Shown here: piece after piece, positions 961-64,000 of the stretch
How the letters are laid out: every line of letters begins with the position of its first letter
How positions within the stretch are numbered: the first letter of the stretch is position 1
Origin: Bolinopsis microptera
Taxonomy: Eukaryota > Ctenophora > Tentaculata > Lobata > Bolinopsidae
Direction of reading: 5' to 3'
Assembly (NCBI RefSeq): GCF_026151205.1
Contig: NC_087082.1
Span: 3,128,001 to 3,192,000, forward strand
Length of the DNA stretch: 64,000 nt
Program-made: the position numbers and the translations under genes
The notes under the pieces: generated by a model
What the model was told of the DNA's origin: nothing
The model's database searches: none
Seen by the model: the letters and a program-made list of their open reading frames with translations, nothing else

Positions 961-1016
<56 letters not shown>

Positions 1017-6614: not shown

Positions 6615-7125
6615 GGGATTTTGACTTCCAGTACCTCAATTTGGTTTCGTACCATCATCAATTAACTGAGTAATTGGTTTCTGGGCAAACATCTCATCTA
6701 ATCTTTCAAAGTTGTCTTCAGAAAGTTTCACATTTGAAAATGGGACAGACTTTTGAAAATACAACTTTTCGTTTTGTTAAGCTTTCTGCTCATGTGGGCT
6801 TCCTCCGACAGAAATCAAACTTCCAGCACCTCAATCGTGTCATATGGCATCTTAAGTTGACTAACTAATTGGTTTATGGTGACAAAATCTGTTGAAACTG
6901 TAAAATTTCGGTCCTGGAAATTTCATCTTCAAAAACTGAAAATGGGACAGAGATTTGGAGAATATGATTTTGCAATTTTATTCGGGATTTTGACCTCCAG
7001 TACCTCAATTTGGTTTCGTACCATCCTCAATTAAACTGATTAATTGGTTTCTGGGCAAAAATTTTATCTTATCTGTAAAATTTGTCTTCAGAAAATTTCA
7101 CATTTGAAAATGGGACAGACTTTTG

Positions 7126-17937: not shown

Positions 17938-18450
17938 GTACACGACCACATGCAACAAGATATCAACAGTTATTGTTGAGTGTTGCACAAAGCACGTTTA
18001 TACCTGGAAGTGCCGGGAGCTGAGCTGCCTTCCAGTTAAAGAGTTAAAGAAGAAACTGCTGTTGAAAAACATAGAGATTTAAGGTTATTACTGTTTTGAT
18101 TTTCCCAATGACTTCTAGTTCGAAACATAAATTTGAATGTAGAAAATGATAAAATGGAAAATGCGAATTTGATTTGGTAATGAAATGTGATGAGAATATG
18201 TTTAACATGTTACACAGTATTAATTAAGAATGATCGTCGTATCAATTGTTATCAAAAATCTGGTTAATCAACTTCATTCATCTGTCATCAACACATTTTC
18301 AAAACAAATATTAATACTAAAACTTTGATCAAAAATCCATGAATAAAAATCAAATTGTCGAAACAGAAATTGCCTTACCTGATGAGATTATTAACATTCA
18401 TTAATAAAAGCAGCTGTAAAATACAATTATTGTTCGAAAGATTGAACAAC

Positions 18451-18456
18451 TTTATT
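18451..18456 (-). other. Candidate PIEZO polyadenylation signal (AATAAA on minus)
   Basis: TTTATT on plus reads AATAAA on minus, about 470 nt downstream of the PIEZO stop codon. It is a plausible but unproven transcript end; AATAAA arises often by chance in AT-rich DNA. Confidence 0.35.
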
Positions 18457-18861
18457 GAAATTTGTCTTTCAGTTCAACAAATATTAAATTTCTGTCCTGA
18501 ACACAATTAATGGTTTTTTAAATAATTCCGTTGACATTTTTTAGTTTTTACACCTACAGTTGAGAATAATTGCTGCACAGAATCTAAAGACGTACGAATA
18601 TAACTGAGTAACTACATTAAACCTCAAATTTACCATCAGTATAGGGTAAGGAAAATATTACGGTAAATTAGGGTTTTGATCGGTGTTTTGCTGTAATCAC
18701 CCTCATCGAACCCATAATAACAATAAGTAGATAATTAACTATCGTCATTAATTAATTATCATTAATAAACATTACAAGACATGATAAAAATTCTGAACTT
18801 TCCACAGGTCCTAACCAGAGGACTGGAGTCTCTACACGGCAGTTATAGTAGGAGGATATAT

Positions 18862-18925
18862 AAACAGTAACCACGTGACCTGGTTGGTCACCATGGTCAC
18901 GTGGTTACCATGGTCACGTGGTCAC
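18862..18925. promoter_or_regulatory. E-box cluster (CACGTG x3) overlapping the PIEZO stop
   Basis: Three CACGTG hexamers lie within about 60 bp, in a near-palindromic GGTCACGTGGTTACCATGG context that touches the PIEZO stop codon. CACGTG is the bHLH-ZIP (USF/MYC/MITF-type) binding core. Any regulatory role at a 3' end is inference. Confidence 0.5.
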
Positions 18926-19032
18926 TCCTCCTTGAGGTGCCTGTGTCGTCCGGTCCACACTATCAGGGTCTCCGGGGAGCGGTAAAGGAGGAGGAGCTTC
19001 CTGTATAATACTTGCTCCAGTACAAACTCTCC
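18922..19032 (-). CDS. PIEZO: PIEZO terminal exon (end of C-terminal domain, stop)
   Basis: The acceptor CTTCCCCAG is followed in phase 0 by GEFVLEQVLYRKLLLLYRSP, then ETLIVWTGRHRHLKEE and TGA. It aligns without gaps to the vertebrate end ([24 protein letters not shown]). The S-P-E pair corresponds to the constriction-neck residues of mouse Piezo1 (P2536/E2537, from memory). Confidence 0.95.
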   Translation of the reverse strand, partial: GEFVLEQVLYRKLLLLYRSPETLIVWTGRHRHLKEE

Positions 19033-39777: not shown

Positions 39778-40049
39778 CTGAGATAAAAGTACAATAAAAC
39801 GTCTTGTATACATAATTACAATTATATATGTGAATATTATGGCAGACAGTTACTTACGGACGAGATGTAGCTGATACTTTAGTTTCCCTTTGAGTTGTTC
39901 AGCGGAGGTTTAGCGTCCTGTAACTTATTACTCTAGTGTAGTGGTAGTGTCTCTCACTATGTACTCAGTTACTAGTAGGAATTGTCGTGTGTGTATATGA
40001 TACAGGCTTATTTCTGACACGTTTCTCACTCCGTAATAAGGGGCTGTTG

Positions 40050-42600: not shown

Positions 42601-44160
42601 GTCATGTAACCATAACAAACACCACCTTATATACGGTAATGTAACCATAACCAAACACTGCAGCTGTCTAGTACACTACTGAATAGGACGCCTGTTTGTT
42701 GGCATTTTGTTTTTTTAATTTGTGTTACCAAAATAAATTAAATCAATGGAATTTATTTAACATTGTGTTCATCATAAATGAAGCAGATGTGTAACCAACG
42801 AACCAATTCAAACAATCTTTGAGATTTTAGAAAACTAAGTATCGACAAACATTTAACAATTTTATTCGCTATGTAGATTGTGATGCGGTGTTACGGCTTC
42901 AATTGGAATATTGCTGAAGCGTGGATGTGGATCTGGATTGACCACTGATTGAAACTACTATAGTATATAAACGTAATTACTAGTGATACTCCACATCAGA
43001 TCAGCAAAGCGAATGTAAACGAAAAAGTGCTGCAATGTAAGCTTATTTAAGAGCAGTTTTCAAATTACATCATGCGAATACATTTGTTGCTGTAAGTTAT
43101 ACGCTAATTATTACCAATTCTTAGTCTTAACAAGTTGAGTACAAGCTACGGCGAGCAGCTGAGCACGGACTGGAAACTGCTTTAGTCGGGATGCATTCAT
43201 CCTTACATAAAATTCCCATACGTGATTGCAGTAATTTTATTGTATATTATAGATATACAATATAAATTACTGCAATGCAGTAATTTATATTGTATAATAT
43301 AATTACGTGAGGTAAATAGTACCAAAACTGATTAAATTGTCTATTACAATCAGAATTGACAAACACTACAATTATACTTAATAGTGATAGTAATAGTATT
43401 ATACCCTGTAGAGCTAGGGATCAAGTCGGTGACTCGATTGAAGAAAACACGACCCATGGATAAATTGTTAGTTTCCATTATCATACCATAACCCTATTTA
43501 AGTAATAGAGACAAGGTCAATAGGAAAGTATTCATTCTATCCACTGGAGTGATCAAACTGACTAATGTTAGATTGTCTTGACTAGGGAAATTAATTTTAA
43601 TTATGTAATATTTCTGTAATTATTATGAAATTCGGATTAACTCACAGAAAAATTTCATGATTAAGGTTGATGACCTTTATATGAAGCAGAGAACCAATAT
43701 AAAAAACAGATAGATACGTAGAATCTCAAAGTTACCCAATTTCATAAAAAATACGCCAAGTTTATATTTTAAGCGTAGCTTGTGTATCAACTTTTCACAG
43801 TGAGGTACAATTTCAATATGATTGTGTGGGCAAAGAAACAAAGGACAAATGATTTAGCGAGATGGTCACGGTACTAATTCTTTGTCTGACTGTGGGAACC
43901 TATTGATTTTGGTCACGTAGTCCTGTATCAGTTCATACTTGACATGGATAAGGACATCAGTCTGCATTTCAAACTTCGACAAAATGAATTTACCCAGCAA
44001 ACGTCCACGAATCAGCCTGATCTGTAGTTACCACAGTTACCTAGTTACTGATCTAAATTGAGAGCAGGTGGCTGAACGGTCACATGATCAATGAGTCCAA
44101 TTCCTTAGCTTGCTCACTCCGACATATAAGTGTCTCTCTCCACTTCGACTTCTCTATCTC
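42601..44160. other. AT-rich unique sequence with one hairpin
   Basis: No coding signal. A hairpin is noted separately at 43,225-43,276. Confidence 0.5.
43225..43276. repeat. 52-bp perfect-ended hairpin plus a third copy of its arm
   Basis: ATTGCAGTAATTTTATTGTA pairs with TACAATATAAATTACTGCAAT around a short TATAG loop. The arm GCAGTAATTTATATTGTA is repeated immediately after (43,278-43,310). No target duplication is evident. Confidence 0.75.
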
Positions 44161-44228
44161 CTCTAAAGTTTTCCCAGTGTGATTCCACATATATGGTAAT
44201 CAGATGGTTTCGTAAGTACATTTTTCAG

Positions 44229-44307
44229 CGCTTGGATAGCGATGTTCGGAGGCTTGACCCTGCGCCGCCACAGAAGGCTGATGTACCATGATAGGGAGAT
44301 GTGCGAA
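44229..44307 (+). other. Exon-like segment, unassigned
   Basis: A pyrimidine-rich acceptor (TACATTTTTCAG) is followed by 1 nt and 26 codons, AWIAMFGGLTLRRHRRLMYH and DREMCE, then a strong donor GTGAGT. The GC content of 44.2-44.7 kb is higher than around it. On the minus strand, CTCCAAG|GTGAGC near 44,490 is another good donor, so the strand is uncertain. I do not recognise the peptide. Confidence 0.25.
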
Positions 44308-44899
44308 GTGAGTACCTCATACGGGTGCGCCCGCGCACAACAGTAGAGATTGCAGCGCTCATTGCTCGTCCTATACACAATGTGCTGAAGGGGGCTGTAC
44401 GTACAGGCATGGTGTCGTATATAGCCAGACCAGCGCTGACCAACCACCAGGACTGTTGATGTACATACTGATAGGTTCAGTGTGTTGCTCACCTTGGAGG
44501 TGCAGCAATGTCCTATAACTTAGTCCTGCTCGAGGTGGGTCCTCTATTGTGCATTATTACAGATATCCTCTCTGCCAAGGAGGCCTGGAGAAGAGATCTA
44601 CGCGCGCTCTCCCCACCTGTATTCTCTACAATACAGGACCAAAGTGAACGTTTCTAGATGGAGTAGTCTGGGAGAGGGAGGTCTGGGAGGGGAAATCGAG
44701 GGGAGCTGGGTCTGTGGAGAGGTGTGGAGTTTCTGCATGCTAGACCTTGGTCTGATTAGATGTTTTAACATTGCTACTGAATGATGTCGTAGTATACCAG
44801 CTATTGTGTGGTACGTTTTTACATTGAAACGATTTCAAGACAAATAACAAATATGGCCGAAGTTTATGGTTTATAAGAAATAGTTTTGAAGAATGGATG

Positions 44900-47800
44900 T
44901 TTGAACTCAGCATACTTATAATTGATAATGATATCCAGAATCATACTTGGATCATGGAGTTGAAGATATTACTCATGAGTCATTAATTATATTGAGCTCT
45001 TAACAAATAAATCACAAAGTTATTAACATAAATTATGCTTATATGTAGATTATATATAAATGATATTCCAAATAATTAATTTTTATAACCAAAGCATGTC
45101 CCATTTCAAGCAAATAACCATTCAAATTAAAAGCTCCTTTAAATCAAGATTAACCTAACATTAGAATAGCTCCAATAGCAAAATCGTGCTCAAAAATAAT
45201 ACTTATTATACATAATAAACCTATCTAAATCCCCACATAAAAAAAGTTGACACAACAAAAAAAGGCAGAATAACAGCAAAGTTAACGGCTGCATAAATAA
45301 TAATATAATATTTCCCACGCTAATCATAATTAATGATATGATATATCTGTCAATCGGTAATCGCCAAAATTTAAGTCAATAAATTAAACCTCCTTATTTT
45401 GGGGATAGTTAATCTTTACAGATTCACCCCTTAGCAAACAGATTGTAATGATACTCTTTACAAGATCACCCTATATCTTGACAAGAAATGTCATCCAGAA
45501 CTTCTGGGAAATTTCTTGAAAAGGTTTCCTCTCCGATTTTTTCATGAATAAAGTTCAGATCCCAATAGAGCTGCTCTGTAACCGGATATGACCTTCTCCA
45601 CAGAGAGAAGAAAAGTAGAACTCTTTGGACAGCTCAACTTGGTTCTCTCTCCACAATTGCAGTAGGATTTTCAGACGAAACAATGCTGTCAGTAAGCTCC
45701 TAGACAGCGCAGAAAGCTGCGATACATCTGTTGGACTGTGGCTGCATCATTAGATTTCCATCCGTTGGCAGAAGATCTAGTATAATAGTATAAGCAAGAC
45801 CTTTTCCACGATTTCTCTCCCAATAACCCATCAAGGTTCCAAACAATTCTTGAAAACTCTCATTTTAAAATGGTTTTCCCCCCAAAAAAAGAGGGTGTAC
45901 AGACGAATGAGATATTGGAACGTGGATGCCATGTAACTTGTTCCTCGCCTGGTAACCTTAAACAAACCATATCCTCTCAATTCTGTTTGTCAAAATCGTG
46001 CATAGAACGATTTAAGCTGAAGAAGTGAGCTTATCAGAGGAGAGCCGTCTAGTTGATTGAGAGATCTGATTAGGAAGTTAGAGTTTTAAGTAACAATTCT
46101 GGGTTGCCCTTATATGCAAGCAGAAATCGGAGTGAACAGCTCTTTGAAACATGATTTGTAGGGAGGAACAGGCATTTCTAGGACTAACAGGACTCCAGGG
46201 AATGCTCTGACAAAAAGAGGCACTTTTAGCTGAAGTACTGAAGGATAAGGTGCTTTGTATACAAGAGACTGCACACTTTCATAGGCCACATCGTTTGCTT
46301 GCTTTGTCAGTGGACTGAGGTTTTGTATATACTAGATGATCTTCTTCGCCTATCGACAACTTAGATAGAAAAAAAAAAAAAAAATAAAAAAGGAGTGTGG
46401 AGAAGAACTATACCTTCCTCTAACTATTTATGAAGTGTGTATTACAGACAAATTTGTTCTTCTGACAGCGAGTGATACACCATGGTTGAGAACAGTTCTC
46501 ACACTGGGATGTCACCTCATCGCATCAATCGATCAACAGCTTCATCAGCAATAGGAAGGTTTCAACAAGCCTCAAGATGCAGTGAACTAATGACTTCTCT
46601 TGATCGGAACACCTTATCGTGTCTTTGATTGAATACGAAGCGGTAGAAACGAACTGGTATGTATGGAGGAATAAATTGGGACAAGAATCTGCCTGGCTTG
46701 AAGCGGTACTGATTCGTAGGCATCAAACTGACTTAGATTCAGGTTCTTGATTGCGCAAATAACTCAGGTGAAATACTGTTGTTATTGAATCCTCAGCTTG
46801 TGCAAGGATTTCTCCGTATTCTCTGTTTTATTCACCAAGTTCATCGATTCGCTATTCTATTCGCCTCTGTCCTCTTATTCCATTGAAGTCAAAAGGCTCT
46901 GAACTTGGCCCAGAGCAGCAAACCACGTAACAAGTGATTCATAAATCTGATCAACACCTGCAGAATCCTGACTTCTTTCAAGAAGCTCATGATCGTAAGT
47001 ATCCATCTTAGAGTTGTTCTTAGCAAATTGGGACACTCAGCTCAACAATTGTCCACTAATAGCATAAGATACCGCTATGAGATCGTTTCTTCACGATTTC
47101 CAATTGCTTTCAAGAAGTCTGTTCGTAACAACGAGTAAATCTATCAGATCATTAGAACCCGTCCTAACTTTTTAATAGAATACAGTGAAACAGCTCTTTT
47201 AATCGGTATGCCTTTTCAGAGTTAGTTTCCTCTTGTATTAGTGAACTACTGTAGTTGGATAGTGTATTGTGGTAGGACAAGGACGGCAAAAGGGTTCCGG
47301 AATGTGAGCAAATCTTTGGTACAGAGAGATGCCGATGTGTAATCAATATTATTTGTTTATGTATTCGCGCCTTATTTCTCTTTATTCTGGTTCAAGGGCA
47401 AACTCTTAAAACCAAAAAGCATACAACCGGGTCTTCATCCTCTGCGCATGGAAAAGCTGCAGTTTCAAGGCTGATGGACGAGAAACTGTGAGTTTCAGCA
47501 GCAATGATTTATCCTTAAAATCTAGACAATCAGTCTGCTTTAAAGTTTGTTGATTTGTCTTTCAGTATTTTATTGATAACTTCAGTGATAGCTGCTGTTA
47601 AATTCCTCAATGGATATCTTACCGCAAACTGACTGATATTCATTTTTTTCAGGCTGTAAGCCTGACCATGAAAACTCTATACACTTCTAACATACAGCTT
47701 GTTCTCATTCATGTAGCATACACCTGTTTCAACACCATATGGACTTCCCCCCCCACCCTCCCCCCATTCCAAAAAACTGAGTGTGAAAATTGCTCTATCC

Positions 47801-49784
47801 TGCAATACAAAATAGTATTCTCCTAGTTCTGCATTTTCCAGTAACGACTCACCATCTGTCCGTCACATTAACATGATAACATCGTGACAAACCCTTCGTC
47901 TGTAAAAAGCGGGAAGAGGATGTGGTTCAGAAAGCGCGGCAGAAAACGTTAGGAACCCTCTGTTCTGGCACAACTCACGGAGTAGGCAGTGTGGTCCCTG
48001 ATCTGTCCATGCATTTGTCCGTTCGATAACAGCGGTTTGCTGCAAGTCCAAAAATCTTTAGGTAATAGAAGAGCCATGAAGCCAAGTGCTTCTAGAGTAT
48101 GAGGCAAGCATGTCATCACAATAGAGTCTTTAAAGGCTATATTAGCGCCATAATAGGACCGCCAAGTTCAAATAGTTACACTTAGTCCAGTTGAAAGACT
48201 CTGTACTTCTTGAACTATGTTGTTCCGAAGAACAGCCCCTCGCTTAAAAGCTTCTACTTCATGCTGTACCTGTAATTGTTTTTAATTTAACAAACAAAAC
48301 TTGTAGGACGAAGGTAGGACGTACAGGTAAAAAAAGGATTCAATAACAAGCATAGTGAAGTATTATACTGAAAATCTTTTACCTGATACGATTTCACGAA
48401 CATAATCGATCGTGGTCAGGAATCTAATGAAGTTTTGGCAGAAAGCTCTAGAGATTAAATTGAATTTAGGAAAGAAAAAACACCGCAGGTTTGGGAACAA
48501 TATTTGGCTGATGCAAAAAATTGAGACAATAATATGACATTGATTAGATGTCCTCAATAATTTTGTATGTGTTCGTCAATAGTACTGCTATAAACTCAAT
48601 AAAATTATCACTTAGTTAAACACGTAAGAAAGTCCAGATGCTTGAATCAAACATTCACTCAAACTTCAATAGACAAACTTCTCAAACACTTTTACTGTTA
48701 CTTTAAAACCCTCAGAGTCTCCTGGCAGGATCCTCAAAATATTAACATCACAATCTATAACTACACACACAATTAAGCCCAAAATATCTTAAACGACTCT
48801 CTTCCTCGATAACATGAGCTAACCACCATCAGTCCCCAAAATCAACACTGAATAAGTAGACACTGAGGAACAGATTTTCCTCATGATTTGTGTCGTGTGT
48901 CTCATGGTTATTGTTCTGAGCCACTCCACGTCAAACGTCTAGAACTAGATTCTTAAAGTTAAGCTGGCAACAAAGTAAAATCTCTATAGACTGAAACATC
49001 AGTCAATACAGTGTGACGTCTCTGCCCTAATCTTTGGGCACTATCGAGGAGACGGCATCAATTCTTTGTGGCGACATTTCTAGAAATTGATGATTTTAAC
49101 AGTTCTGAGCTCCTCCCAAAAATTCTTTCAAACTCCGTTTACTGATGCAATAATATGATTGACTGGTACAAATTGACAATGATATGTTGCAAGTGATTTG
49201 TATATCGGCACTCTGATGTACCTGTTTTTCCAATTAAATAACAATTTATCCTTAAGAACATTCTTCATGCACATTGACATGATTCCCAGCCGTTTATGCT
49301 ACTTTTGGCTCTGAGATTTCATTCGGTAGCATCATTTAGTTGCAGTTGACTTTTCATGGCTATATTGGATTCAAACATTTCATCAATAGTACAGTATTGT
49401 CTATACAGATGGACATCTTGATAAGTTTGCCCGGCATATTTCATGAACAGGCTGATCTTGTCCTATTATGTTAATGTATTTTTCTTCTTGAAGAAGATCC
49501 AGTAAATCTTTTCGTTATGTCAATCCGGGAAATATTTGTCTCTCTCGACGGGAATCATCATGAGTTTTTACTATCTTCTCCATTCATTCGGTTCTTTACC
49601 CTATCAGTGGTTGATTATGTCAAGTTAACAGGAGCGGAGCATTGCCTTTAGAATATGTTTTCGTTAGTAAAATTCGTCTTCTCTGACAGAGGGTTTACTT
49701 GAGGACTGATTTTCATAAGCTTTTTGTCTTCATTCCTTCTAACTTTGTGTTTAAATTTGTAACCTTTTCAGCATTACCCGAGAT
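44900..49784 (-). pseudogene. Frameshifted coding-like region, unidentified protein(s)
   Basis: Minus-strand stretches read as ordinary protein for 40-66 codons before jumping frame: VAYESVQSLVYKAPYPSVLQ and VPLFVRAFPGVLLVLEMPV (about 46,320-46,120), ELFGTLMGYWERNRGKGLAY (about 45,870-45,720) and FFSLWRRSYPVTEQLYWDLN then EKIGEETFSRNFPEVLDDIS (about 45,620-45,455). The composition suggests a helical, HEAT-like protein, but I cannot name it. Breaks every 100-200 bp fit either decay or unpolished read sequence. The Arg/Ser-repeat coding of the left palindrome arm also continues somewhat below 49.8 kb. A stretch of 15 A lies near 46,370. Confidence 0.35.
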
Positions 49785-50440
49785 TCCGCTTTTAGAATCC
49801 TAGCTGAAGTTGTTCAAGCTTCTTGGTAATTATTTTTACTCTGTAATGATTTGTCATTCGACAGAATCAGTTGTACTTGCGATGCCTCTTTTTCACTGCC
49901 CTTAGTCATATCCTATTCTTTAGACCAATACGGATTCCTTTTTCGTCTAAATCCGCAGGACTTTTAATCTACTAATTTGTCTGACTTCTCTGTTATCATT
50001 CTGGGACACTAATCTTTTATATGCTTAATTTCGGGACTTTTGATCGAGATCTTTGTCTGTCTTCTTTGTTATCACTTTTGGACACTGAATCTTTTCTATA
50101 TTTATATTTTCCGGACTTTTTGATCGTGATCTACTGCTTTTTTTCTTTGCGTGGACTGCTAGATACAGTTGCCGGACGAGGTCTATAGATCAATTCGGAA
50201 GTGGCAGATTTTTCGAGGACTTTTTGATTTGATCATGAGGACTCTTTTCGATTTTGATGGGAGTTAATTTCTTTAAGTAGGTGCTCTAAAATGAGAAGAA
50301 TTTCCTTTGGGTCTTTATCACTGGACGAGTGATCTTTGATTTGTTGTTCTTAAATCTTGCTTTCATTTTATGAAGTGCTTTCGAGTCATCAATCGAAGAG
50401 CTCTCCTTATGACTTGAAAACAGTCTATTGTTCTTTAGAG
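49785..50440 (-). pseudogene. Arg/Ser-repeat coding region, left arm (broken)
   Basis: Reverse-strand reading gives repeated S-R-S-R-S-K-S-P-E-like units (GATCACGATCAAAAAGTCCG and variants, spaced about 75-90 bp) in shifting frames. This is typical of an RS domain, as found in splicing-related proteins. Its partner is the right arm at 63,360-63,960. It continues below 49.8 kb to about 49,700. Confidence 0.5.
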
Positions 50441-50453
50441 TCGATTTTTTTCA

Positions 50454-50714
50454 ATGAAGTGCCAGGTGCGAATAGTCATATTCAGGTGTTTTCTCTATTT
50501 TATTTTTAGCTTCCCTTCTTTTCATAAGTATTCGTCCCAGAAATTAATGAATCAGAATCTTGCAATCCACGATCTCTTGCAGAAGGTTGTGTTAGTATTT
50601 GATGATTCATTGAGGGTGGAAGAGATGGGCCAAATCGACTCAGACTGCTTGATGATGTATCTAGCTTTTTCCATCGAATTCTATCTTTACCATGCTGATG
50701 AAAAGTCTGTTTAG
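50454..50714 (-). pseudogene. Left-arm copy of the Ser/acidic segment upstream of the RS region
   Basis: Inverted counterpart of the right-arm frame at 63,091-63,351. On this arm the minus-strand reading is broken; the plus-strand frame over the same bases is a shadow. Confidence 0.45.
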
Positions 50715-51849
50715 ATCTTACCGATTCTTTATCCTGGGGAATTTAGATTGATGAAAATTGTAAATTTCACTCTGAATATGTTTAGAACATTAAAATAATT
50801 ACACATTCAGTACTAATGATTTCTTATAAACATCTTATACTTTATGAGAGCTTGTGATAACTTGTGATAGGCTCATAATGTGATAGGATCCCTAGATGAT
50901 TGAATTGAAAAGGATAATTTCAAATTTGTTAGTGAATTGCCTATTACTATTATATCAGGCCTAATTTAATATAAGGAGGTTAATAACCTATGAATCGCCG
51001 TAATGTTTGAAAAGAAAATAATTAGTCAACACTGAATTTCATAAATCCTTAAAGTCTGCAGTGAATAAGAGTCAGTTAAATACATACTTTTAAAGATTTT
51101 GATTGACGAATGCAAATAATACTCTTCATTGTAAAAAACTTTCATAAAAAATCATCAAAAACGACATAATAAAAACAATACTTATTATTATTGTTTGATA
51201 CAACAGATTACATTCCCGTTATTTTCACGTAACCTCATTTAATCACGTTTAACAAACATTATTTTAATCTCTATACGAGTTCATATAAATGAAATAGTCA
51301 TATTAGTTTTAACGGTACCCTAACTTAAATTGTTCCATATCCCCCTAGCAGGAAAGTTTAACTTCCCAATTCATTAAATTACACACTAGATGGATTAGAG
51401 AAAGATACCACTTCACAAAAAATTCTTTATAATTTGTTCATAAATACCTAATTTGTTAAACTGTACCTGCCCACATGTTCCTGTATATATACTTAAAGGC
51501 CTGTTCAATTAATTTCAATTAATTAACCATCACAAAAAGAAAGGTATCCCAGTATAGGTTGGAGAAATTATTGAATATTGGCAATGCATTCTTTAATATA
51601 AGGGTGCTAGACTTATTTAAATGTCCCGATGTCTGGAGGTGAGAAATTAAGAGCAGTCCTGGAAAAACAATTTCAATCCAGGAATCCTCTCATTTTCAAG
51701 AAATTGCAACATTTATCATTATATCATCGTTGAAAATCAGTCATCCTCGACTCAGTGTCTGTATCTCAAACACATAGGTTTTAACAAGTCACCAGCGTCG
51801 AATGAGAATAGGGATCCATTAGGTTGAATTCTCAGTCCAACAAGACCTC

Positions 51850-53000
51850 GAAATATAGGTTGATGAACAACGAGCACTTTATCTTTTACAGCCCATCAAC
51901 TGAGAGTACTGGAGTCATTACAGAAGGACAATGGTTTTGTGTTGGTTTTAAGCCAATCGGATGAATCTATGTCTGCAAACAATCCTTAAACATTCGCTCT
52001 TCCGTACATTTTTATACATTGCTTCTGCCAGCCTCATTGGCTGCCTTCCATGACTATATTACATTTCATTGTATTTTGAGCTACGAATTTCACACGGGGG
52101 TATGTTCTCCATGCCAGTTTTATCACACGACACACAACGATGAAATTACAACTGTTAAACATGCAGCCCATATTAGAGTCAACATCTTTCCAAGACAGGA
52201 ATTTTGACAAACTTACTGTGAGATCTTCAACATCTGACATTTGGCAGAGTCCTCCTGCAATAAAAATCGTTCATATTTCTCGTACAAAGACACTTTCAAC
52301 ACAAGTTCCTTAACTTGAGTAGGGAAGCGCTAAAGATTTCCACATTTGTCATTAGGGCAAAGCAACTGGTTTTATACATTCTTCAGTGTTGATCAATACC
52401 TCACAAATAGCTTTTCATGCATCTTTGCAGCAAGACGTGATCACAGTAAAAATTGCATACAAAGAGATCCTTTGTATTCATCAAAACATACATTACATTG
52501 ATGAGGAGACTGGCTGAACACTGACAATCTCTTTTCATAGTCAAAATAAGCATAAATGCCCAATTATATCTTTGAAATAAATTCAGGACAAAACTAATTT
52601 GTTGGGAAGTTGAAGATAGTTCCAAATGGTCATTCACAAGAAATGAAGTTCCAAGAAATACAAAAATAACATCTTTTGTATCCTCACAATCGGATTTAGG
52701 TGTTCTTGACTTGTTGCAACATATTATCGGGCAACCGATACCAAGAAGAGTTAGCTTTGGAATTGCTGAAGATGGAATACCCGGAGGATTCTCAATTTCA
52801 ATACAATAGGAGGAAGATGCTTGACACTTATAGACAAATTGTATTGTCTGGTTCGTACAAAGATGCGTAGACTATTGGGTATGTGAGAGTCCTCTTGATT
52901 ATCAGTTCCCACTAAATCAAGAGAGGTTGAACATTGGCATTGAACTACCCTGATTTTCATGTCAGTTCCTGAATTCTTTACTATCATATATGCTCTGATG
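51850..53000 (-). pseudogene. RNF14: RNF14-like RBR E3 ubiquitin ligase, left-arm copy (broken)
   Basis: RNF14-type proteins combine an N-terminal RWD domain with a RING1-IBR-RING2 catalytic module that passes ubiquitin through a RING2 cysteine. On minus, frames shift between recognisable pieces: RWD with VKHLPPIVLKL (vertebrate L-P-P-F-V-L-N-F-E), a RING1 region CNVCFDEYKGSLCMQF (about 52,505-52,430), and an IBR-like SNMGCMFNSCNFIVVCRVIK at about 52,155-52,115 after Q-M-S-D-V. A good acceptor TTTATTGCAG precedes Q-M-S-D-V, so introns are retained and this is not a processed copy. RING2 is not clear on this arm. Confidence 0.75.
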
Positions 53001-56000
53001 TGCCATAGTTAATTATTGTTGGGTAATCAAGATCTTCTTAATTCATCTGCTGAATTGATTAGTAATAAATTATACATCCATGAAATTATTATTGTTACAA
53101 ATACATTGTAAGATGTAATGAGAAAACGAGAAAGTAACATTAAAGTAGAAAGTACCAGAAATTAAGCTTTAGATTGAAAGAAAATGATATTATTCAATCG
53201 AATCAAGGGACACAGGCAAGCGGAAATTAGGTGGAAACAATTCATATGATCAACAATGATATTTTAGAAAAATTGTAAAACGATATAACTTTAACTTTTA
53301 TACTAATATATATTTAATATAATCTATATAATCATATGAATTAGTATATACATATAATTAAATAATGAGATGCAATTGACTGACACAATTATAACCAAGC
53401 AACGAAAATGTCAACTATTAGTGATGCAATCAGCAGAAGAACAATAAACAAGTAAGTAAATGTCAATAATATGTACACTTTAACTGTACAATAAACAAGT
53501 TTTAACTCTGCTTGGAATGGCCAAGAACGCAGGTAATTCTCAAGTGCTACCAAGAATCAAGAACAATACAATTTCGATGAAAACAAAACCCTGGCAGAGT
53601 GGCTTGATAAGTGTTATCTTTAAAGCTTTATTGGTTATTAAAGCGGTTTGTAAGATTATTCAGCTGTTCTATTTGGAATAGCGCATTATATGACGGGTAA
53701 ATCTGAGGTGTAAGAGGAGTACTAGTGTTAAAAAAATCTCCAGAGCTCCCATCGCGCCGGGATGGCAAGAGTCTAAAACTGTTTTAAATTTTAAAGTTGA
53801 ATTAGAAGGATTTAAGAGAGATTCATTCTAAAAGTTTTGTTAATGAATGTTTTTTTTAGACAGTTTATTATAATGTTATAGAATAATTGAGAAAGTTATA
53901 AAGGGGAACCAATTATTAGTTATAATCATGAATTAGGTACGTGGTTTAGTTTTGGGTGGACACTGATTTTACTTTAAATTTAAATATCAAGTATAAGCTC
54001 AAATCTGCTTAAACTCCTAATGAAAACCAATGTCATGGTCACTGGCTCTATTAAATTTCAGACCATCCTCCCCATCTCATTAGCAAGAAGCGTATCAAAA
54101 AAAGCTTTTACTTGAAACCCTGCAATTGGCAACACCTGGGCGTGAAATAGAGTGGCTCCCCCTAAATAGTCGGGGCATTGAACCAGCTTAGTCACTCAGC
54201 ATCCATACATTGCATACAATTATTTTATAAAGCGCTAATTATAACTGTTTCAAAAGCATCTGTCTGAAGTTTCCTGACTGCCGTGTGCTCTTTGGGATTT
54301 ATTTTTGGATTCTATTTTTACATAGATATTGATTTATATTTACCTATAATAGATAATATGCATCGCTATTTTCCATGTCCGCTGAACAAACCTGGCACAC
54401 ATCAAATCTTACTCTAGAAAAACAGAACTCATCAGCCTGTCTGAATCATAAAACTAGTTTACCAGCTACGTTACAGTTTTCATGGGACATCCTTTGACAT
54501 TTGGCCATCACTATCCACTAGGACAATGTATATTTATGGTCCGGAAGGGGGGTCTCCTTGTCCTTGGATCTGTGTATTGATCGTTTTCATAAAATTTCAT
54601 TTGATCACTTGACTACACGTAGGACTCACTTAGAATCACTTAGACTCATCCTATTAAATGTTCAATCCTAACACCACTGGTCATAGTAGGATTTAGCATG
54701 GCACGACTGCTCAAACATAATGTTAAATAGTGTGACATACTATTATATTCTTATAATTATATCATATGCCATGGTGTTTTCTTCATGGAAACGAAAAGTT
54801 TTCAATGAAACGAAAAGTTTTATTTTACATTCCTTAAAGCTGGGAAAAACACCATGCTGCTAGACCTAAGTGGAAAATCCTTATTTACAACGACAAGATG
54901 AGCCTTAACTCTTTCTTAAGTTCACCTCAATGCATCCCATGACAGTTGAAAATTACTACAGCAAAACAGAGCCTTGGTGAAATATGCTGATACAAAAGGG
55001 ACACTGTCCCAATTGAGGATGGAATACAATGCCATCATTAAGCACATTGTGGTAGCTCGCAAATCTCGCTGAAACACAGTTAACAAAAATACAGTAACTA
55101 AATATTCAATTTCATGCCATTTATTTCAGAGAAACAAGTCTACAATAAATCAATTTAATATTTAAGGAATCCTAATTCAATGGGTAGGATGGTTGTCACT
55201 CTTTTAAATAGATCTAGATATAGGTTGACGGGCAAAGAGTGTTAGTGCTGTTCGCTAGTGCTCACACCAACGGCAACCCTAGTTAATTTTTGTATGGACA
55301 CCGGTCGCCATCGCCCCAACCGAAACAAAATTAGGTTGTAGAATTTATTGTAGACTTTTAGTGCAGTGGAGAAGCGGTGTGGTGCATTAAATAGTCGTGA
55401 CAGCATACTGATTTAGGAGTTTTTTTTACGTGAGATAAGGTGTGATATTTTTGGACCTAAAGGCTTTACTAATGGAAACTTTAAATATGGTTATTTTAAT
55501 CATTCATTAATATCAATTAAAAATATATAAATCTGGAATCTGTTCACACTGTGAACCAGTCCTATAAAAATAAAATAAAAAACCTCTTAAATCAAATATT
55601 TAAAACGTATCAATAATGGAATAGCATACAAACGACCAATTGGAGGCATGAGAAGTGCGGCGGGTCATTGCAAAATCAATAATGGAATCAAATATATATA
55701 TATATATATATATTTAAATCTAAAACTATGAGCAAATGAGCAACTGCCTAAACGATGCAGAAGTGAAAACAAACTAATAAATATAGCAATTTCCCTTTAA
55801 ATTCGCAATAAATAAGGAAGTTCAATGTCATTTATAATTCTAAAAAACTTATATGTGACCAGTAAATAAGTTAACTTGGTCGATAGACCCTTACTGTATA
55901 AAATTCTCAATCTAACTTCTTAAACAATAATTAAATTAATTAAAAAACAACAACAACCTTTGGTGTGTAACGAATTGATTAAACAGCCTCATTTGACACA

Positions 56001-56010
56001 AATATCTTCA
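53001..56010. other. Left palindrome arm, non-coding part
   Basis: AT-rich sequence mirrored at 57,770-60,800. It holds a (TA)n tract at 55,691-55,712, and I see no gene or element ends. It probably represents the 5' flank or an intron of the RNF14-like gene. Confidence 0.6.
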
Positions 56011-56014
56011 TAAT

Positions 56015-56828
56015 ACGGGTGGCCCATAAAGTGTTAACCAACACGCAACCTCTTAATAACTCACGTAATTCGTCTCCAATTGCACTAAATATTGCAGAGA
56101 TTATAGATATGGTCAAACTTAGATTTCCTGAAAAGTTTCGTAAGCAAAGAACAATCTACAGTGGGGCGTGGCGTAGACACTCCATCCTTTTTCACTATTG
56201 TCTTCATAATATGAGAAGCGATTTAAGCTAAGAACTCCAAATTTTTTGCACACATTTGCTTGATATTTAAAACCTTTCACAAGTTTCAATTTCATTGTTC
56301 AAAATTTGGCTGAGTTATGACCATTTCAAATTATCGGAAACGTGATCCGCAGCCCTCAGTCAGTGATCTTCTGCACTCAATCAGTGATCTCGTCACCCAT
56401 TCTGATCAAGAGTAAGGAGTTAGCTGTAATAATGAGGTTCTTTAGCTTTACCAAAACATACTGAGGGAGATGAACGACATGATCATGATTGATTGGATAC
56501 GATAATGACTTGATAGAAGGAAAACACCAAATCTTCGTAAAAGTATGGTCCTAGATTCCACGAAGATATGATGGCGCACCAGATCGTGACTTTTTCAGGA
56601 AATCAGGAATCACGGGTCTAAAGTTGGTGTTTCTTTGTGATCCGATAGCCCGGTTAGAAGATCTCGCTTAGGATCGTTGACGGATGTTCTGCTGAGGTCT
56701 AAGGCAGGAGCTGTTTTCGGGTGCAATATAGTGTATCACAAGTCACAAACAACATGGTGATGTTTTATTCGGTCCTCGCAGTTGGTCTTCTGCGACTCTT
56801 CGCCCCGATCGTTTGACAGAATAAGTGA
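56015..56828 (-). mobile_element. Mariner-like element, left-arm copy (5'-truncated at the palindrome centre)
   Basis: The outer terminus ACGGGTGGCCCATAAA (56015-56030) matches the MITE terminus at 34,151. Minus-strand reading from the centre outward gives broken transposase sequence, including a segment resembling the mariner W-C-A-I...G-P-Y-F-F-E-D block (readable here as WCAIISSWNLGPYFYEDLVF across a frameshift, about 56,600-56,530). The catalytic aspartates cannot be verified in the broken frame. The inner terminus is absent, because the element stops at the inversion centre. Confidence 0.65.
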
Positions 56829-56929
56829 AACTTGTTATGTACTCAGCTTTTAAACGACAATTTCAAATGAAATTCAACCATCCCCTTGCGAAAAAGCTGC
56901 TTTTGATATGCATCACAAGAATCAAGTAT
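56829..56929. other. Centre (spacer) of the inverted duplication
   Basis: About 100 bp at the turn-round point. Its two halves still share short inverted matches (GTGAAACTTG with CAAGTATCAC; CAGCTTTT with AAAAGCTG), so the unpaired loop may be only about 50 bp. Confidence 0.6.
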
Positions 56930-57767
56930 CACTTTTTCTGCAAACGATCGGCGATGAGTCGGCGAGACCAAACTGCGAGGACGAAGAAATCATCACCATG
57001 GTTGTTCTGTGACGTCGGTGGGATAAACCTAAAATTTTGCCCCGAACAACGAGCTCCTGCCTTAGACCTCAGCCAGACATCCCTTCAACGAATCCTAAAG
57101 CGAGATACTTTCTAACCGGGGCCTATAGGGATCACAAAGAAACACCTACTTTTAGACCGTGAGTCCTGATTTTCCTGAAAGTCAAGATCTGGTGCGCCTT
57201 CCGTTTCTCGTGCGGAATACTAGGACTTACTTTTACGAACGGAATTTGTGTTTTCTGTCTAGCAAGTCAATTATCGGTATCCAATCAATAAAGATAAGGG
57301 TCGTAATCCTCCTCAGTTATGGTTGGTATAAGCTAATGAAACTAATTAATACAGCTAACGCAATTACTCTTGATCAGATTGGGTGACGAGATCACTGAAG
57401 AGTGCAGAGTTCCAATGATGGTGCTTCGGATCTCGTTTCCGATGATTTTGAAAATGGTCATATATCAGCCAAATTTTTGAACAATGAAACTATGAAACTT
57501 GGGGAAAGGGATTTTAAATATCAGCCAAATGTTGCTGCAAAAAATTTGGGTTCTTTGCTTAAAGCGTTCTATTTTATGAAGGACAATAGGAAAGCGGAGT
57601 GTCACGCACGCCACTGTAATTGGGCGTGTGGCTTACGAATTTCAGAAATCTAAGTTTGACCCATAATCTATAATCTCTGAAATTTTTGTGCAAATAGAGA
57701 GACGAATTACTCGTGAGTTTATTCAAGAGGTTGGGCTTTGTGGGTAGTCAATTTTGGGCCAACTGTA
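56930..57767 (+). mobile_element. Mariner-like element, right-arm copy (5'-truncated at the palindrome centre)
   Basis: Reads outward from the centre. At about 57,050-57,110 APALDLSQTSLQRILKRDTF is a helix-turn-helix segment of the mariner transposase N-terminal domain (S-x2-S-V-x-R-I-L-x-K-D pattern). At about 57,180-57,260 a frameshifted V-K-I-W-C-A-F...G-I-L-G block corresponds to the catalytic core. The outer terminus TTTTGGGCCAACTGTA ends at 57,767. Stops and frameshifts make it non-functional as given. Confidence 0.65.
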
Positions 57768-60700
57768 TTATGAAGATATTTTGTGTCAAATTGTAGGCTG
57801 TTTAATCTTCTTACACACCAAAGGTTGTGTGTGGTTTTTAATTAATTTATTATTGGTTTAAAAGAGTTGTATATTGAGATGTTTATTTCAGTAGTATTTA
57901 GACCAATTAAATAATGTACTCGTCACATATATGTGGTTTTAGAATTATATAATGACATTGAACGAAACTTATTTATTTGCGAATTTAAAGGATTGCTAGT
58001 ATTTTATTTATTTGTTTCACTCTTTTGGGCACCCCGGGGGGGTTTAGGCAGTGCTCTTGTGACCTGAGTTTAGAGTTATATATATATATATTTTATATTT
58101 GATCCAATAGGGATTTTTGCATGACCCGCAGCATCGTTACTCTTGCCTCCATTTGTATCGTTTGTTTGACTTTGCCATTGAGACGTTTTAAATATTTGAT
58201 TTAAGAGGTTTTGTTGTATTTTTATAGGACTGGTTCACAGTGTGAAACAGATTCAGATTTATATATTTTTTAAGTGATCATTTAATGAATGATTAAAAGA
58301 CCAATTTTCCAGATGCCATAGTTACAAGCCTTTAGGTCCAAAAATTATAACCCATTTTGACTCACGTAAAAAACAAACTATAAATCAGTAGGCTTGTCAC
58401 TCTATTAATGCACCACACCGCTTCTCCACTGCACTAAAAGTTATACAATAAATTCTACAATCCTAATTTTGTATCGTGATGGAGACGGGTGTCCATACAA
58501 AATTTTACTAGGTTGCCGTGGTGTGGCCATAGCGAACAGCACGAACACCCCTTTGCCCGTCAACTAATATCTAATCTATTTAAAGAGTGAAAAACAATAC
58601 TGCAATGAATCTAGGATTCCTTTAAATATTAACATTGATTAATTTTAACTTGTTTACTCTGTATAATGGCATGGAAATTGATTTTTTGTTTTAAACTGAT
58701 TTTTGTTTAAACTGTGTTCAGCGGAGAAGTTGCTAGCTACCAAAATGTTGTTAATGTTGCAGTGTTTCCTTCGCAAAAGTGAGACAGTTCCTTTGTCAGC
58801 ATAGTTCCCACGTTGGCTCAATGTTTGCTGAGTATTTGCAACGTCGAATGGGTTGCATTGAGGTGGAACTTAGAAGAGCAAGGTCATTTGTAGTTGTAAA
58901 TAAGGTTGTTACATCTTAGGTCTAGCTGCATGGTGTTTTCCCACGTTCAGAATGTAAATAAAACTTTTCGTTTTCATTGAACACTTTTCGTTTCATGTAA
59001 GATAAACACCATGCATAGATATTAATTATAAGGTTATATAATAGTCTGTCACACTATTTATGTTATGTTTGAGCAGTCGTGCCCATGGGCTAAATCTAAA
59101 TACGGACCTCGTGGTGTTGATTAACATTTAATAGCGTGAGTCGAAAGTGAGTCTAACGTGGAGGTCTAAGTGAGTCTAAGTGATCCAAATGGAAATATTT
59201 ATGAAAAGACGGTATCAAAAACACAGATCAATGGACAAGGGAGGACCCACTGCAGGACATTCAATGTACATTCTAGTGGTAGTGCATGGCCCAAATGGTC
59301 AAAGGATGTCCAGGAAACTGTACGTAGCTGGTAAACTAGTTTGAATTCAGGACTAGGATTGATTGAGTTTGGGGTTTTTCTAGAGGTAAGATTTGATGGT
59401 GCCAGTATGTTCAGGCGGACATGGAAAATGATGCGAGGAATATTATTTTTTATAGGTTTATAAAAATCATATCTATGTAAAAATAGATCCAAAATAAACG
59501 TCCAAAGATTCACACGGACAGTCAGGGAACTTTCCAGTACAGGTTGCTTTTGACTACAGTTAATTAGCGCTTTGTAATTAATTGTATGCAAGGGGTTGGA
59601 TGCTGATTGACTAAGCTGGTTCAATGCCCCAGCTATTTAGGGGGAGCCACTAAATTCACGCAAAGGTGTTGCCCATTGCTGGGTTCAAGGTAAAAGCTTT
59701 TTGGTACGGCTCTTGATAATTGAGATGGGGGAGGAAGGTCGGAAAATTTAATAGAGCAGGACATATGATCATTGTTTTCATGTGGAGTTTAAGCTGATTT
59801 GAGCTTATACTTATAGTTATAGTGAATGAAATCTAGTGTCCACCAAAAACGAAACTACGGGGCCTAATTCTTGATTAGTACATATATATGGTTCCCTTAT
59901 TCTTTCTAAATTATCATAGTTCATTTAGAAACATTTCTAAAAATAAATTCATAACAAACCCTTTTAGAAATGATTTATCTCTTAAATCTTCTTAATTCAA
60001 CTTTAAAATTTAAAAACTGTTTTAGAGCTCTTGCCATCCGGCGCAGAGGGAAAAGCTCTGGAGATTTTTAAACCAATAGTTATCCTCTTTATACATCTGT
60101 TTCTCGGTCTGATATAATGCTATTCCATATAGATCCTGCTGAAAATCTGACAAACCGCTGTAAATAACCATGAAAGCTTTAAAAGATTACCACGTGCAAG
60201 CACTTCTGCCAGGGTTTTGTTTCATCGAAAATGTATTGTTTCTTGATTCTTGTTAGCACTGAGAAGTACCTGGTGGTCTTGGCCATTCAAGCAGAAGTTG
60301 AAACTGGTTTTTGTACATTTAATGTGTACATATTATTGACATTTTCTTTATTGTTTATTGTTCTATGCTGTGTGCATCACTATTATTGACATCTTCGTTG
60401 CTTGGTTATAATTTTGGTCTGCCAATTGCATCTCTTGATTCTAATTAAATGTATTTATTTGCAATTTCAATTATAATATTAAACTTATATTATTTTACTT
60501 ATACTCTTAATATTATATCGTATGACATTTTTTATATAATGCTTGTTGAGCTATGAATTGTTCACTTATTTCCGTGCTGTGTCACTTGATTCGATTGATA
60601 TATCATTTTCTTTCAATATAAAAGCTTATTCTGTACTTTCTACTTTAATGGTACTATCTCGTTCTCTTTCAATCTTTATCATGCGATTTGCCAACAAATA

Positions 60701-60800
60701 AATACATTTTTCATGGATGTATGTTCTTTAAGAATCAATTCAGCAGATCTGAATGAGAAGATCCTTGTGTCCAACAAGATTAAATATTGGCACTTCACGA
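57768..60800. other. Right palindrome arm, non-coding part
   Basis: Mirror of 53,001-56,010, with a (TA)n tract near 58,078-58,092. The minus frame of 141 codons at 59,624-59,199 has no counterpart on the left arm and no domain, and I regard it as chance. Confidence 0.6.
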
Positions 60801-62120
60801 GCATTTATGATAGTAATGAATTCAGGAACAAACATGAAAATCAGAGGTGATTTCAATGCCAATGTTCAACCAGCTCTTGATTTAGTGGAAACTGTTATTC
60901 CAAGATGACTCTCACATACCAATTGTCTTACGGCAATCTTTGTACGAAAGCAGGACACTACAATAGTCTTATGTCAGCATCTTCCTCTATTGTATTGAAA
61001 TTTGAGTATACTCCGGGTTATCCTCTTCAGCATTTCAAGATATCTTTTATTGTATCTGGTTGCCCGCATACTATGTTGAAAAAGTCAAAGAAACACCTAA
61101 TATCGATTGGAGAGGATACTAAATATGTTATATTGTTTTCTTGGACTTCATTTCGTGTCAATGACATTTTTGGGAACTATCTTACTTACCAACCAAATTA
61201 GTTTGTCCTGAATTTATTTCAGAAGATAAAATTGGGCATTATGCGTATTATTTGACTATGAACAGAGATTGGTCATTGTTCTGCCAGTTCCTATAAATGT
61301 AATGTATGTTTTGATGAATACAAAGGATCTCTTTGTATGCAATTTTTACCTTGTGATCACGTCTTCTGCAAAAGTTATGCATGAATAAGCTATTTTGAGG
61401 TATTGATCAAATATGGAGATGTAAACATCGTTGCTTTGCCCTAATGACAAATGTGATTCTTTAGCGTCCTACTCATGTTAAGGAAACTTGTTGAAAGTGA
61501 CTAGTAGAGAAATATGAACTATTTTTATTTGCAGAGGCCTCTTGAACAAATGTCAGATGTTTGTAAGATGTCCCAGGAAGGTTTGTAAAATTCTGTCTTG
61601 AAGGATGTTGACTGAATATGGACTCAGTGTCAACAGTTGGACTTTCATTTTTGTGTGTTGTGTGATAACAACTGGCATGGAGAGAGAACATTACCCGTGA
61701 GAAATTCGTAGGCTCAAAAATACATTGAAAGTGTATGATAAATGGAAGGCAGCCACTGAGGCCTGGGCAAGGGTAGCAATGATATAAAATGTACGGAAGA
61801 GCACGATTGTTTTAAGGTAGTTGCAGAATAGATTCCGCCGATGGTGAAAACAACAAACAAAACCATGTCCTTCTTGTAATACTCATTACTCTTAGGGATG
61901 GGCTGTAATAAAGATAAAGTGCTCTGTGTGCAGCAACTATATGTGCTGGCTCTGTGGACTGTGAATTCACCTAAAGATCCCTATTCTCATTTTCGACTGG
62001 TGGGACCTTGTGAAAACAGATTGTTGAGAATACAGACACTGGTTGTCGCGGCTGACGGATTTTCAAACGATGATAATATTGATAATGGAGGGCAATTTCT
62101 GAAAATGAGATGATGGACTG
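60800..62120 (+). pseudogene. RNF14: RNF14-like RBR E3 ubiquitin ligase, right-arm copy (broken)
   Basis: In order on plus: RWD segment SIVLKFEYTPGYPLQHFKIS (60,985-61,045); RING1 YKCNVCFDEYKGSLCMQFLP then CDHVFCKSY (61,290-61,380), with the same C-x2-C-x8-C-x5-C-x-H-x2-C spacing as vertebrate RNF14 but Tyr where the last Cys is expected; acceptor TTATTTGCAG, then Q-M-S-D-V and RCPRKVCK (61,560-61,600); IBR CQQLDFHFCVLCDNNWHGE (about 61,627-61,690); RING2 start GCNKDKVLCVQQLYV and SPKDPYSHFRLVGPCENRLL (61,900-62,030). Pieces lie in different frames. Introns are kept, so this is a genomic duplication. Lesions differ from those of the left arm. Confidence 0.8.
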
Positions 62121-63090
62121 GATTGAATTGTGTTTATGACTGATCTTATTTCTCACCTCGGAAATCAGGGAATTTAAATAAGTCTTGAACCTTAGATTAA
62201 AGTATGATTTGCCATATTCAATAAATTTCTCCAACTATACTGGGAATACACGTTCTTTGTTGTTGGTTACTTATAGAAATAATTTGAACTGCCTTTAATT
62301 TTTAATCAGGACTTGTGGGCAGGTTACAGTTTTTACAAATTAGTTTTTTATGAAACTAATTATAAGAATTTTTTGTGAAGTGGGTATCTTCTCTAAATCC
62401 CATCTAGTGTGTATTAATGAATGGGGAAGTTAACACTTCTGATAGGGGGATATGGAACAATATAAGTTTCGGGATACCTTAAATATTATGACTATTCATT
62501 TTATGTGAAACGTTTAGATTAAAATAAGGTTTGTTAACGTGATCAGAATGAGGTCTACTGTAAATAACGGGAATGTAATCTGTTTGAATTCGTATAATAA
62601 TTTGTCGTTGTTTTTATGATTGTAGTTTTTGATGATTTATGAAGTTTTTTTACAATTGAAGTGTTTAATTTGCATTCGTCATACAAAAACTTTTAAACGT
62701 AAGTTTTACTGACCTCGTATTCCACTGCAACTGTAAGGATATATGAAAAATTTCAGTGATGACTAATTATTCTTTTCACATACTTTACGGCTTTCAATAG
62801 GTTATTATCTACCTTATATTATAATTGGGCCTGATATATAGTATAGGCAATTTCATAACAAATTGAAATTTATCCCGTTTCAATTCAATCAATATTAGGG
62901 TAGGCCTATCACATTAGGAGCCCTATCACATAGTTCAAATGCATCTCAAAAGTATAGATGTTATAGACAATCATATAGTACTGAATGTTAATTAATGTAA
63001 TGTTCTATAAACTTATTCAGAGGAATTACATTTCATCCAATCTAATTCCCAGGATAAAGATCGTTAAGATCTAAACAGACTTTTCAGCGC

Positions 63091-63351
63091 ATGGGTAAAG
63101 AGAGAATTCGATGGACAAAGCTTAATACATCAACAGCAGTCAGAGTCAATTTGGCAGCTCTTCCACCCTCAATGAATCAGTCAAATACTACTCAACCTTC
63201 TGCAAGAGAATCGTGGATGCAAGATTCTGATTCATTAGGATTTTTCTGGGATCTATACTCTGATAAGGAAGAAGCTAAAAATAAAAAAGAGACAAACACT
63301 GAATATGACTATTCGGCACATGGCCTTCATGTGATAAAAAGTCGACTCTAA
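63091..63351 (+). CDS. Unrecognised Ser/acidic segment upstream of an RS-repeat region
   Basis: An 86-codon frame with STAVRVNLAALPPSMNQSNT, then SDSLGFFWDLYSDKEEAKNK. It is followed in the same direction by Arg/Ser-repeat coding (63,360-63,960), so it may be an exon of an RS-domain protein. The left-arm counterpart is broken. I do not recognise the protein. Confidence 0.35.
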   Translation: MGKERIRWTKLNTSTAVRVNLAALPPSMNQSNTTQPSARESWMQDSDSLGFFWDLYSDKEEAKNKKETNTEYDYSAHGLHVIKSRL

Positions 63352-63359
63352 GAAAAAAT

Positions 63360-63960
63360 TGGGAAAGTTTTCAAGTATAAGGAGAGCTCTTCCGATTGAT
63401 GACTCGAAAAAGCCAGCTCATAAAATGGCAAGCAGATTTTAAGAACAACAATATCAATGATACACTCCAGTGATTAAGCAAAAGGAAATTTCTCTCCATT
63501 TTAGATCACCTACTGAAAGGAAATTACTCACATCAAATCCGGAAAAGAGTCTCAGATCAAGATCAAAAAGTATCTCGGAAAATCTGCCTCTTCTCGAAAT
63601 GAGCTAGGGACCTCTCCGGAGATCGGGATCTAGCAGTACAGCAAAGAAAAAGCAGAGTTTCGCTCAATAAGTCCGGAAATTATAAAGTATAGATAAGATT
63701 CAGTTTCCAAAGTGAAAACAAAAGAAGCAGACAAAGATCTCGATCAAAGTCCGGAAAATAAAGTATAGAAAAGCTTCGCTCAGTGTCCAGATGTGATTTA
63801 ACTGAGAAGACAGACAAAGGCTGTAGATCAGAAAGTCCCAAGTTAGACAGAAAAGAGGATTCCCGGTATTGGTCATAAAGAAATAGATATGACTAAGGCA
63901 GTGAAAAAGAGGCTTAAGCAAGTACAACTGAGTCTTCGGGAAATTGTCAAATCATCGAGG
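63360..63960 (+). pseudogene. Arg/Ser-repeat coding region, right arm (broken)
   Basis: Repeating S-R-S-R-S-K-S-P-E and K-x-R-K-D-S-V-S-K-S units (AGATCTCGATCAAAGTCCGG and variants) occur in changing frames with stops. This is consistent with an RS domain disrupted by indels. It runs to the window end and lies in the same orientation as the RNF14-like gene, 1.2 kb downstream of it. Confidence 0.5.
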
Positions 63961-64000
63961 AAAAACTAATTTACCATGATGACTTGAACAAGCTTTCAGC

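Follow-up and report, generated by a model that had tools for sequence, protein, structure and literature searches.

How does a chromosome come to carry a long inverted duplication whose two arms match at only about 80%? The question is raised by a window of 64,000 nt from the ctenophore Bolinopsis microptera (assembly GCF_026151205.1, 264.65 Mb in 232 contigs), spanning positions 3,128,001–3,192,000 of contig NC_087082.1, here C11. The initial annotation, made from the letters of the window, offered two readings: an old genomic palindrome, or a single unpolished long read that passed over both strands of one molecule. Our analysis supports the second. We put the probability at about 0.92 that the palindrome is an unpolished foldback read pasted uncorrected into the chromosome, an assembly artefact and not biology. 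The arms differ from each other in the way that sequencing error would make them differ, contig C2 has a polished original, and raw letters are shared with contig C7. It would then be the molecule, not the chromosome, that folded, and gap filling would have done the pasting.

Self-alignment of the window yielded a single colinear minus-strand match over 49,810–63,991 (79.9% identity, E = 0), comprising 14,882 columns with 1,585 mismatches and 1,400 gap positions and far exceeding chance. It confirms the annotated inverted duplication with one centre near 56,890. The mirror symmetry held, but the annotated arms of at least 7.07 kb understated its extent: with flanking sequence added, the mirrored part spans 36,412–77,659 (41.2 kb, 80.6% identity; positions beyond 64,000 continue the window numbering). 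It reaches 13.7 kb past the right edge of the window, which cuts the right arm and hides about two thirds of it. Inside the window identity is even, at 196–242 matching columns per 300 with the first and last bins excepted. As annotated, no large block is lost or gained; apart from a single gap of 100 columns, the largest gap between the arms measures 28 columns, and 231 of 284 gap events are 1–2 bp long. The apparent centre at ~56,900 is displaced from the actual turn (Table 1) because one arm has ~60–90 nt extra. The left arm starts partway through a dispersed repeat of 1.24 kb, as the end of a read would, and the right arm has this repeat whole (77,337–78,575).

Whether an intact single-copy locus exists elsewhere in the assembly had been proposed as a check on the two readings. 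Such a locus was found at C2:13,600,625–13,627,889; the first matches of the arms, to 13,611,264–13,614,782 and 13,600,625–13,602,705, were later extended to 13,627,889. Genome-wide searches covered window positions 18,000–27,500, 28,000–37,500, 40,500–49,800 and 49,785–64,000 (both arms), and for 37,501–40,499 and 64,001–77,000 the comparison was limited to the C2 stretch. Because only the best candidates are scored in these searches, the numbers of repeats are minima, and the single-copy status of the C2 locus applies only within the searched stretches. Apart from dispersed repeats, no other genomic place appeared among the matches listed for the searched arm stretches. Over the long piece of 16.6 kb the right arm is 89.1% and the left arm 88.8% identical to C2, versus ~80% between the arms, a pattern that, judged from these alignments, is that of two independent noisy readings of one sequence.

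A three-way comparison made this quantitative. Both arms cover 16,621 C2 positions (blastn, default gap costs), and 14,140 of these are alike in all three sequences. Differences confined to the right arm number 1,099 (701 substitutions, 398 deletions) and those confined to the left arm 1,258 (717 substitutions, 541 deletions); all three sequences differ at 71 positions, and the arms agree against C2 at only 53 (37 substitutions, 16 deletions). Both arms thus appear to derive from a single locus and to differ by independent read error. Chance coincidence predicts 15.0 substitutions and 12.4 deletions common to both arms (~27), versus the 53 observed. Among the 37 shared substitutions 14 are transitions, with 1.2 expected, and such an excess is what true single-nucleotide polymorphisms (SNPs) of another haplotype would add. 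The branch leading to C2 is, by this count, nearly zero, whereas an old palindrome would make C2 a third lineage with changes of its own.

The kinds of change point the same way. A further check had been to align the arms and to separate homopolymer indels from substitutions, and the differences proved to be mostly 1–2 bp indels and transversions. With the spectrum recomputed at low gap costs, the right arm differs from C2 by 3.3% substitutions, 3.1% deletions and 4.4% insertions, the left arm by 3.4%, 4.0% and 3.7%, giving total indels of 7–8% per arm. Transition:transversion (ts:tv) counts are 53:498 and 65:506 for the two arms at these gap costs; clean diverged sequence nearby has 19:9. Seen in its own reading direction, each arm has C as the base most often deleted and G as the one least often deleted, and A>T and C>A are favoured. 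Across 20 error classes the arms correlate with r = 0.975 when each is taken in its reading direction; complementing the left arm, so as to place it on the ancestral strand, gives r = 0.249. A sequencer would explain an error spectrum set by reading direction more easily than mutation would. We take this transition-poor, indel-rich spectrum to be more like that of PacBio continuous long reads (CLR) than of nanopore reads, and the platform was probably PacBio CLR-like.

Coding sequence is broken in both arms. In the stretch of C2 that matches the arms, six stop-to-stop frames of 465, 692, 970, 252, 472 and 418 aa carry Pfam domains (RWD/RING/IBR, CwfJ C-terminal, M16 peptidase, ClpP, reverse transcriptase and endonuclease). 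They represent an RBR ligase-like protein, CwfJ, an M16 peptidase, ClpP and two frames of a long interspersed nuclear element (LINE). Each of the six carries 44–250 indel bases per arm, and no stop-free stretch longer than 160 aa remains in either arm. Substitutions at codon positions 1, 2 and 3 number 95, 105 and 103 in the right arm and 89, 104 and 124 in the left; these nearly flat counts give little sign of selection. Scans of the window for Rfam families (gathering thresholds) and for tRNA genes returned zero matches and zero genes. Elsewhere in the assembly, the plant-type telomere pattern occurred only at one interior site, on C10, and the insect-type pattern gave 33 matches, all of them on contig C125, compared with 3 for a reversed control pattern.

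Dispersed repeats within the arms offer a separate comparison, for which we used eight copies of the central element, eight of a 0.44-kb repeat, five of the 1.24-kb repeat and five of a 554-bp repeat. Six genomic copies of the central element agree with one another at 96.2–98.4% but with the left arm at 83.8–84.8% and with the right arm at 79.4–80.8%; these figures are for six of the eight compared copies, the other two lying in opposite orientation. Likewise, the five genomic copies of the 554-bp repeat are 98.2–99.8% identical to one another and 87.9–89.5% identical to the arms. On these alignments the arm repeats are outliers from tight families, the same story as read noise.

A further trace of a raw read is a block of 1,753 bp across the turn that recurs letter for letter on C7 (Table 1). 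The identity stops sharply on both sides. Neither edge coincides with a repeat border; both cut into repeats, namely the 554-bp repeat and the central element, and the left flank on C7 is a tandem repeat with a period of ~366 bp. Error-laden letters common to C11 and C7 with zero changes suggest that one read was used twice. Reuse of the same letters elsewhere and an insert at raw-read identity to its true locus (88.8% and 89.1% to C2) are both features of raw-read gap filling, in which case C7 presumably also held a gap; no N occurs in the C11, C7 and C2 stretches checked. Inserts placed by LR_gapcloser have a mean identity of ~87.7% with simulated reads in the comparison cited (PMC8848313). 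The accuracies given for the raw-read gap fillers LR_gapcloser, PBJelly and TGS-GapCloser in the cited parts of PMC8848313 and PMC7476103 are close to the 89% found here, a likeness by insert identity alone, whichever tool this assembly used.

What happened at the turn is suggested by the central element. The left arm tracks the element copy to ~832–861, after which the reverse strand resumes from ~922; the forward strand of an element with terminal inverted repeats thus passes into its reverse strand with an offset of ~60–90 nt. No foreign sequence lies between the strands, only genomic repeat sequence, as judged without comparison to adapter letters. Of the two mechanisms annotated for the single-read reading, template foldback therefore fits better than a missed adapter. 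A read through an unrecognised hairpin adapter would yield the same arms, and SMRTbell adapters that were missed or absent count among the causes of palindromic reads (PMC6218980, in the part cited). Such a read should, however, show foreign adapter sequence at a symmetric turn, and here the turn is asymmetric with genomic sequence between the strands. The argument rests on the absence of foreign sequence, and we regard a missed adapter as an unlikely sub-case within the single-read explanation, the verdict on which it would not change.

Similar reads are known from raw data. In the passages cited from PMC12870357 and PMC6218980, foldback or palindromic long reads likewise derive both strands from one locus, with arms that differ by read error. 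Fewer than half of foldback reads have searchable sequence between their segments (PMC12870357, as cited), and their frequent lack of it is matched here. Foldbacks amount to ~0.55–0.6% in nanopore genomic DNA in the same source, and palindromic PacBio reads are described after amplification, with 0.5% in an unamplified control, a value that combines false positives and missed adapters (PMC6218980). Unlike the raw-data cases in these sources, the present one sits inside a chromosome-scale assembly.

We propose that the sequence from window position 36,412 to the right edge, with at least 13.7 kb beyond, would be one unpolished long read that serves as a gap-bridging insert in C11; in an alternative form, it could be several raw reads in a chain, with a single foldback read making up most of it. 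The sequencer would have read one strand for ~20 kb, turned inside the repeat with the offset seen above, and read the complement for at least 20.8 kb. The source DNA was probably another haplotype of the C2 locus near 13.60–13.63 Mb, with some SNPs and several insertions differing.

Several observations weigh against this proposal. The ts:tv counts depend on the aligner, being 145:647 and 138:656 with blastn, and arm versus arm 497:917 with MAFFT. Substitution rates are slightly lower in coding than in non-coding columns (right arm, 3.15 versus 3.55%; left arm, 3.31 versus 3.61%), and the left arm tilts slightly toward third codon positions. Not all of the read resembles C2 equally: C2:13,600,625–13,602,705 (2.1 kb) is only 84.7% identical to the left and 86.0% to the right arm, and there the source seems to differ from C2 beyond read noise; 78,955–83,943 matches C2 at 84% and 78%, and the central element has no match in the examined C2 stretch (13,575,001–13,675,000). 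Noise continues outside the mirrored part, so the read ends are uncertain. Foldbacks are put at virtually none in PacBio HiFi and Mas-Seq data and at 0.03% in Iso-Seq in the cited text of PMC12870357. Finally, the clean flanks themselves form an inverted pair, so that C11 may have a real inverted structure here, and the same noisy arms would result if a single raw read had crossed a genuine young palindrome.

This outer pair is of a different quality from the arms. Its pieces are 99.5, 97.8 and 96.4% identical, with 1.0% substitutions, 1.3% indels and the 19:9 ts:tv count (over 2,719 bases), and one member carries a 3.3-kb element for which the inverted counterpart is empty (Table 1). It would be explained if two haplotypes had been set head to head on either side of a gap and joined by the foldback read; a true inverted repeat is the alternative. 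False heterotype duplications are documented, some of them with both copies on a single scaffold, separated by gaps (PMC9516828, as far as cited). With its 1.0% substitutions and a transposon insertion, the outer pair is similar to such haplotypes flanking a gap; it may also be a real repeat. We consider it very improbable that C11 has a real satellite-flanked inverted duplication, its outer arms 1.0% diverged in substitutions and one of them with the 3.3-kb transposon insertion, and that a real inverted junction at this place, which might fold as a hairpin, led to the use of the foldback read.

What doubt remains concerns mainly a real young palindrome under a single read, in which arms near-identical in the chromosome were spanned by one unpolished read and the inverted join is genomic. 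The inverted clean flanks, with their 1.0% substitutions and 3.3-kb insertion difference, would suit it, as would the satellite macro-dyad symmetries reported from Tribolium (PMC13081366, in the portion cited). Against it, the arm sequence is that of C2, and the clean C11 flanks find no match within C2:13,575,001–13,675,000 at E 1e-20. Reads should also have been drawn to a genuinely duplicated locus, which would then be polished like C2; the left arm ends, in the manner of a read, within a repeat kept whole in the right arm; and the same raw letters stand on C7. We consider a recent palindrome very improbable. An old genomic palindrome diverged by mutation, for which the colinearity of the arms without large gaps and the slightly fewer substitutions in coding columns might speak, has a probability close to nil: it should show a ts:tv well above 0.5 and clearly fewer coding changes, whereas the arms have a ts:tv of ~0.1 at low gap costs, a near-zero C2 branch, an error spectrum common to the arms in reading direction, nearly flat codon-position counts, repeats that are family outliers and a letter-for-letter block on C7.

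If the palindrome is a foldback read, tens of kilobases of this assembly are uncorrected read sequence that shows conserved genes (RBR-type ligase, M16 peptidase, ClpP and CwfJ-like) as additional copies, broken and inverted. Such copies would mislead counts of gene families and surveys of pseudogenes and palindromes. The three-way comparison that includes a polished copy, together with spectra taken in reading direction, is cheap and internal to the reference, and separates read noise from old divergence.

Table 1. Coordinates of the palindrome, its parts and neighbouring features (window positions; C11 positions beyond 64,000 continue the window numbering)
Feature	Position	Strand	Remarks
Left arm	36412..56845	+	Noisy, unpolished; 36,746–53,310 matches C2 reverse strand; from self-alignment and 88.8% identity to C2:13611269-13627889
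Right arm, part inside window	56846..64000	-	Second independent noisy reading, other strand; runs on to 77,659
Turn point (approximate)	56826..56852		Centre aligned to element copy at C8:17735144
Block spanning turn	55365..57117	+	1,753 bp, letter for letter equal to C7:17755364-17757116
Central dispersed element, two noisy partial readings	56010..57768		~1.48 kb, ~365-bp terminal inverted repeats, around turn
554-bp repeat, left-arm copy	55077..55631	+	Right-arm copy at ~58162-58710
LINE-like stretch, left arm	41236..42593	+	87–89% to listed genomic copies; C2 counterpart has open reverse transcriptase and endonuclease frames
Left neighbour	28811..36411		No alignment to mirror at E 1e-15; A/T runs 2–4x expected
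Clean left flank	22219..28810	+	Inverted copy of C11 88,719–91,726
3.3-kb element	23324..26629		Terminal inverted repeats of ~100 bp, 6-bp direct repeat at ends; inverted counterpart empty

The surroundings of the palindrome are themselves uneven. The stretch to its left, up to 36,411, is probably another unpolished patch. The 0.44-kb repeat cannot settle whether this stretch (28.8–36.4 kb) is raw sequence because its family is itself loose, with copies 92.9–97.9% identical to one another and the window copy at 92.1–93.3%. Further left, satellite sequence is clean at 1,012–4,867 and 5,364–6,108 (99% and 94% matches, 0% indels), and rows from 6,607 to 17,787 have 68–77% matches and 9–14% indels; set against the clean monomers, the noise lies mainly before ~15,500. 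The 365-bp satellite array from 6,607 to ~15,500, with inflated homopolymers and 9–14% indels, represents a second unpolished patch, whose errors have a different profile. On the right-hand side, satellite at 99,866–108,217 is also noisy (76–83% matches, 9–12% indels). The noisy neighbouring stretches support a patchwork origin. C11 91,746–95,133 contains a smaller noisy inverted repeat (centre near 93.45 kb, 74–86% identity), which may stem from another foldback read within the right-hand patch.

The C2 region has features of its own. C2:13,602,706–13,611,268, ~8.6 kb, is present on C2 and absent from the read; a 450-bp direct repeat (99.1%) flanks it on both sides, and a 1,273-aa endonuclease/reverse transcriptase frame lies inside. 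We rejected a reading as a long terminal repeat (LTR) element of which the read would have a solo LTR, as the stretch, with this frame, looks LINE-bearing; it is likely an insertion polymorphism between haplotypes. At C2:13,611,512–13,615,911 and 13,616,294–13,620,521, conserved host-type genes (RBR ligase-like, CwfJ-like, M16 peptidase and ClpP) lie close together as long single open frames, and introns therefore look sparse in this region.

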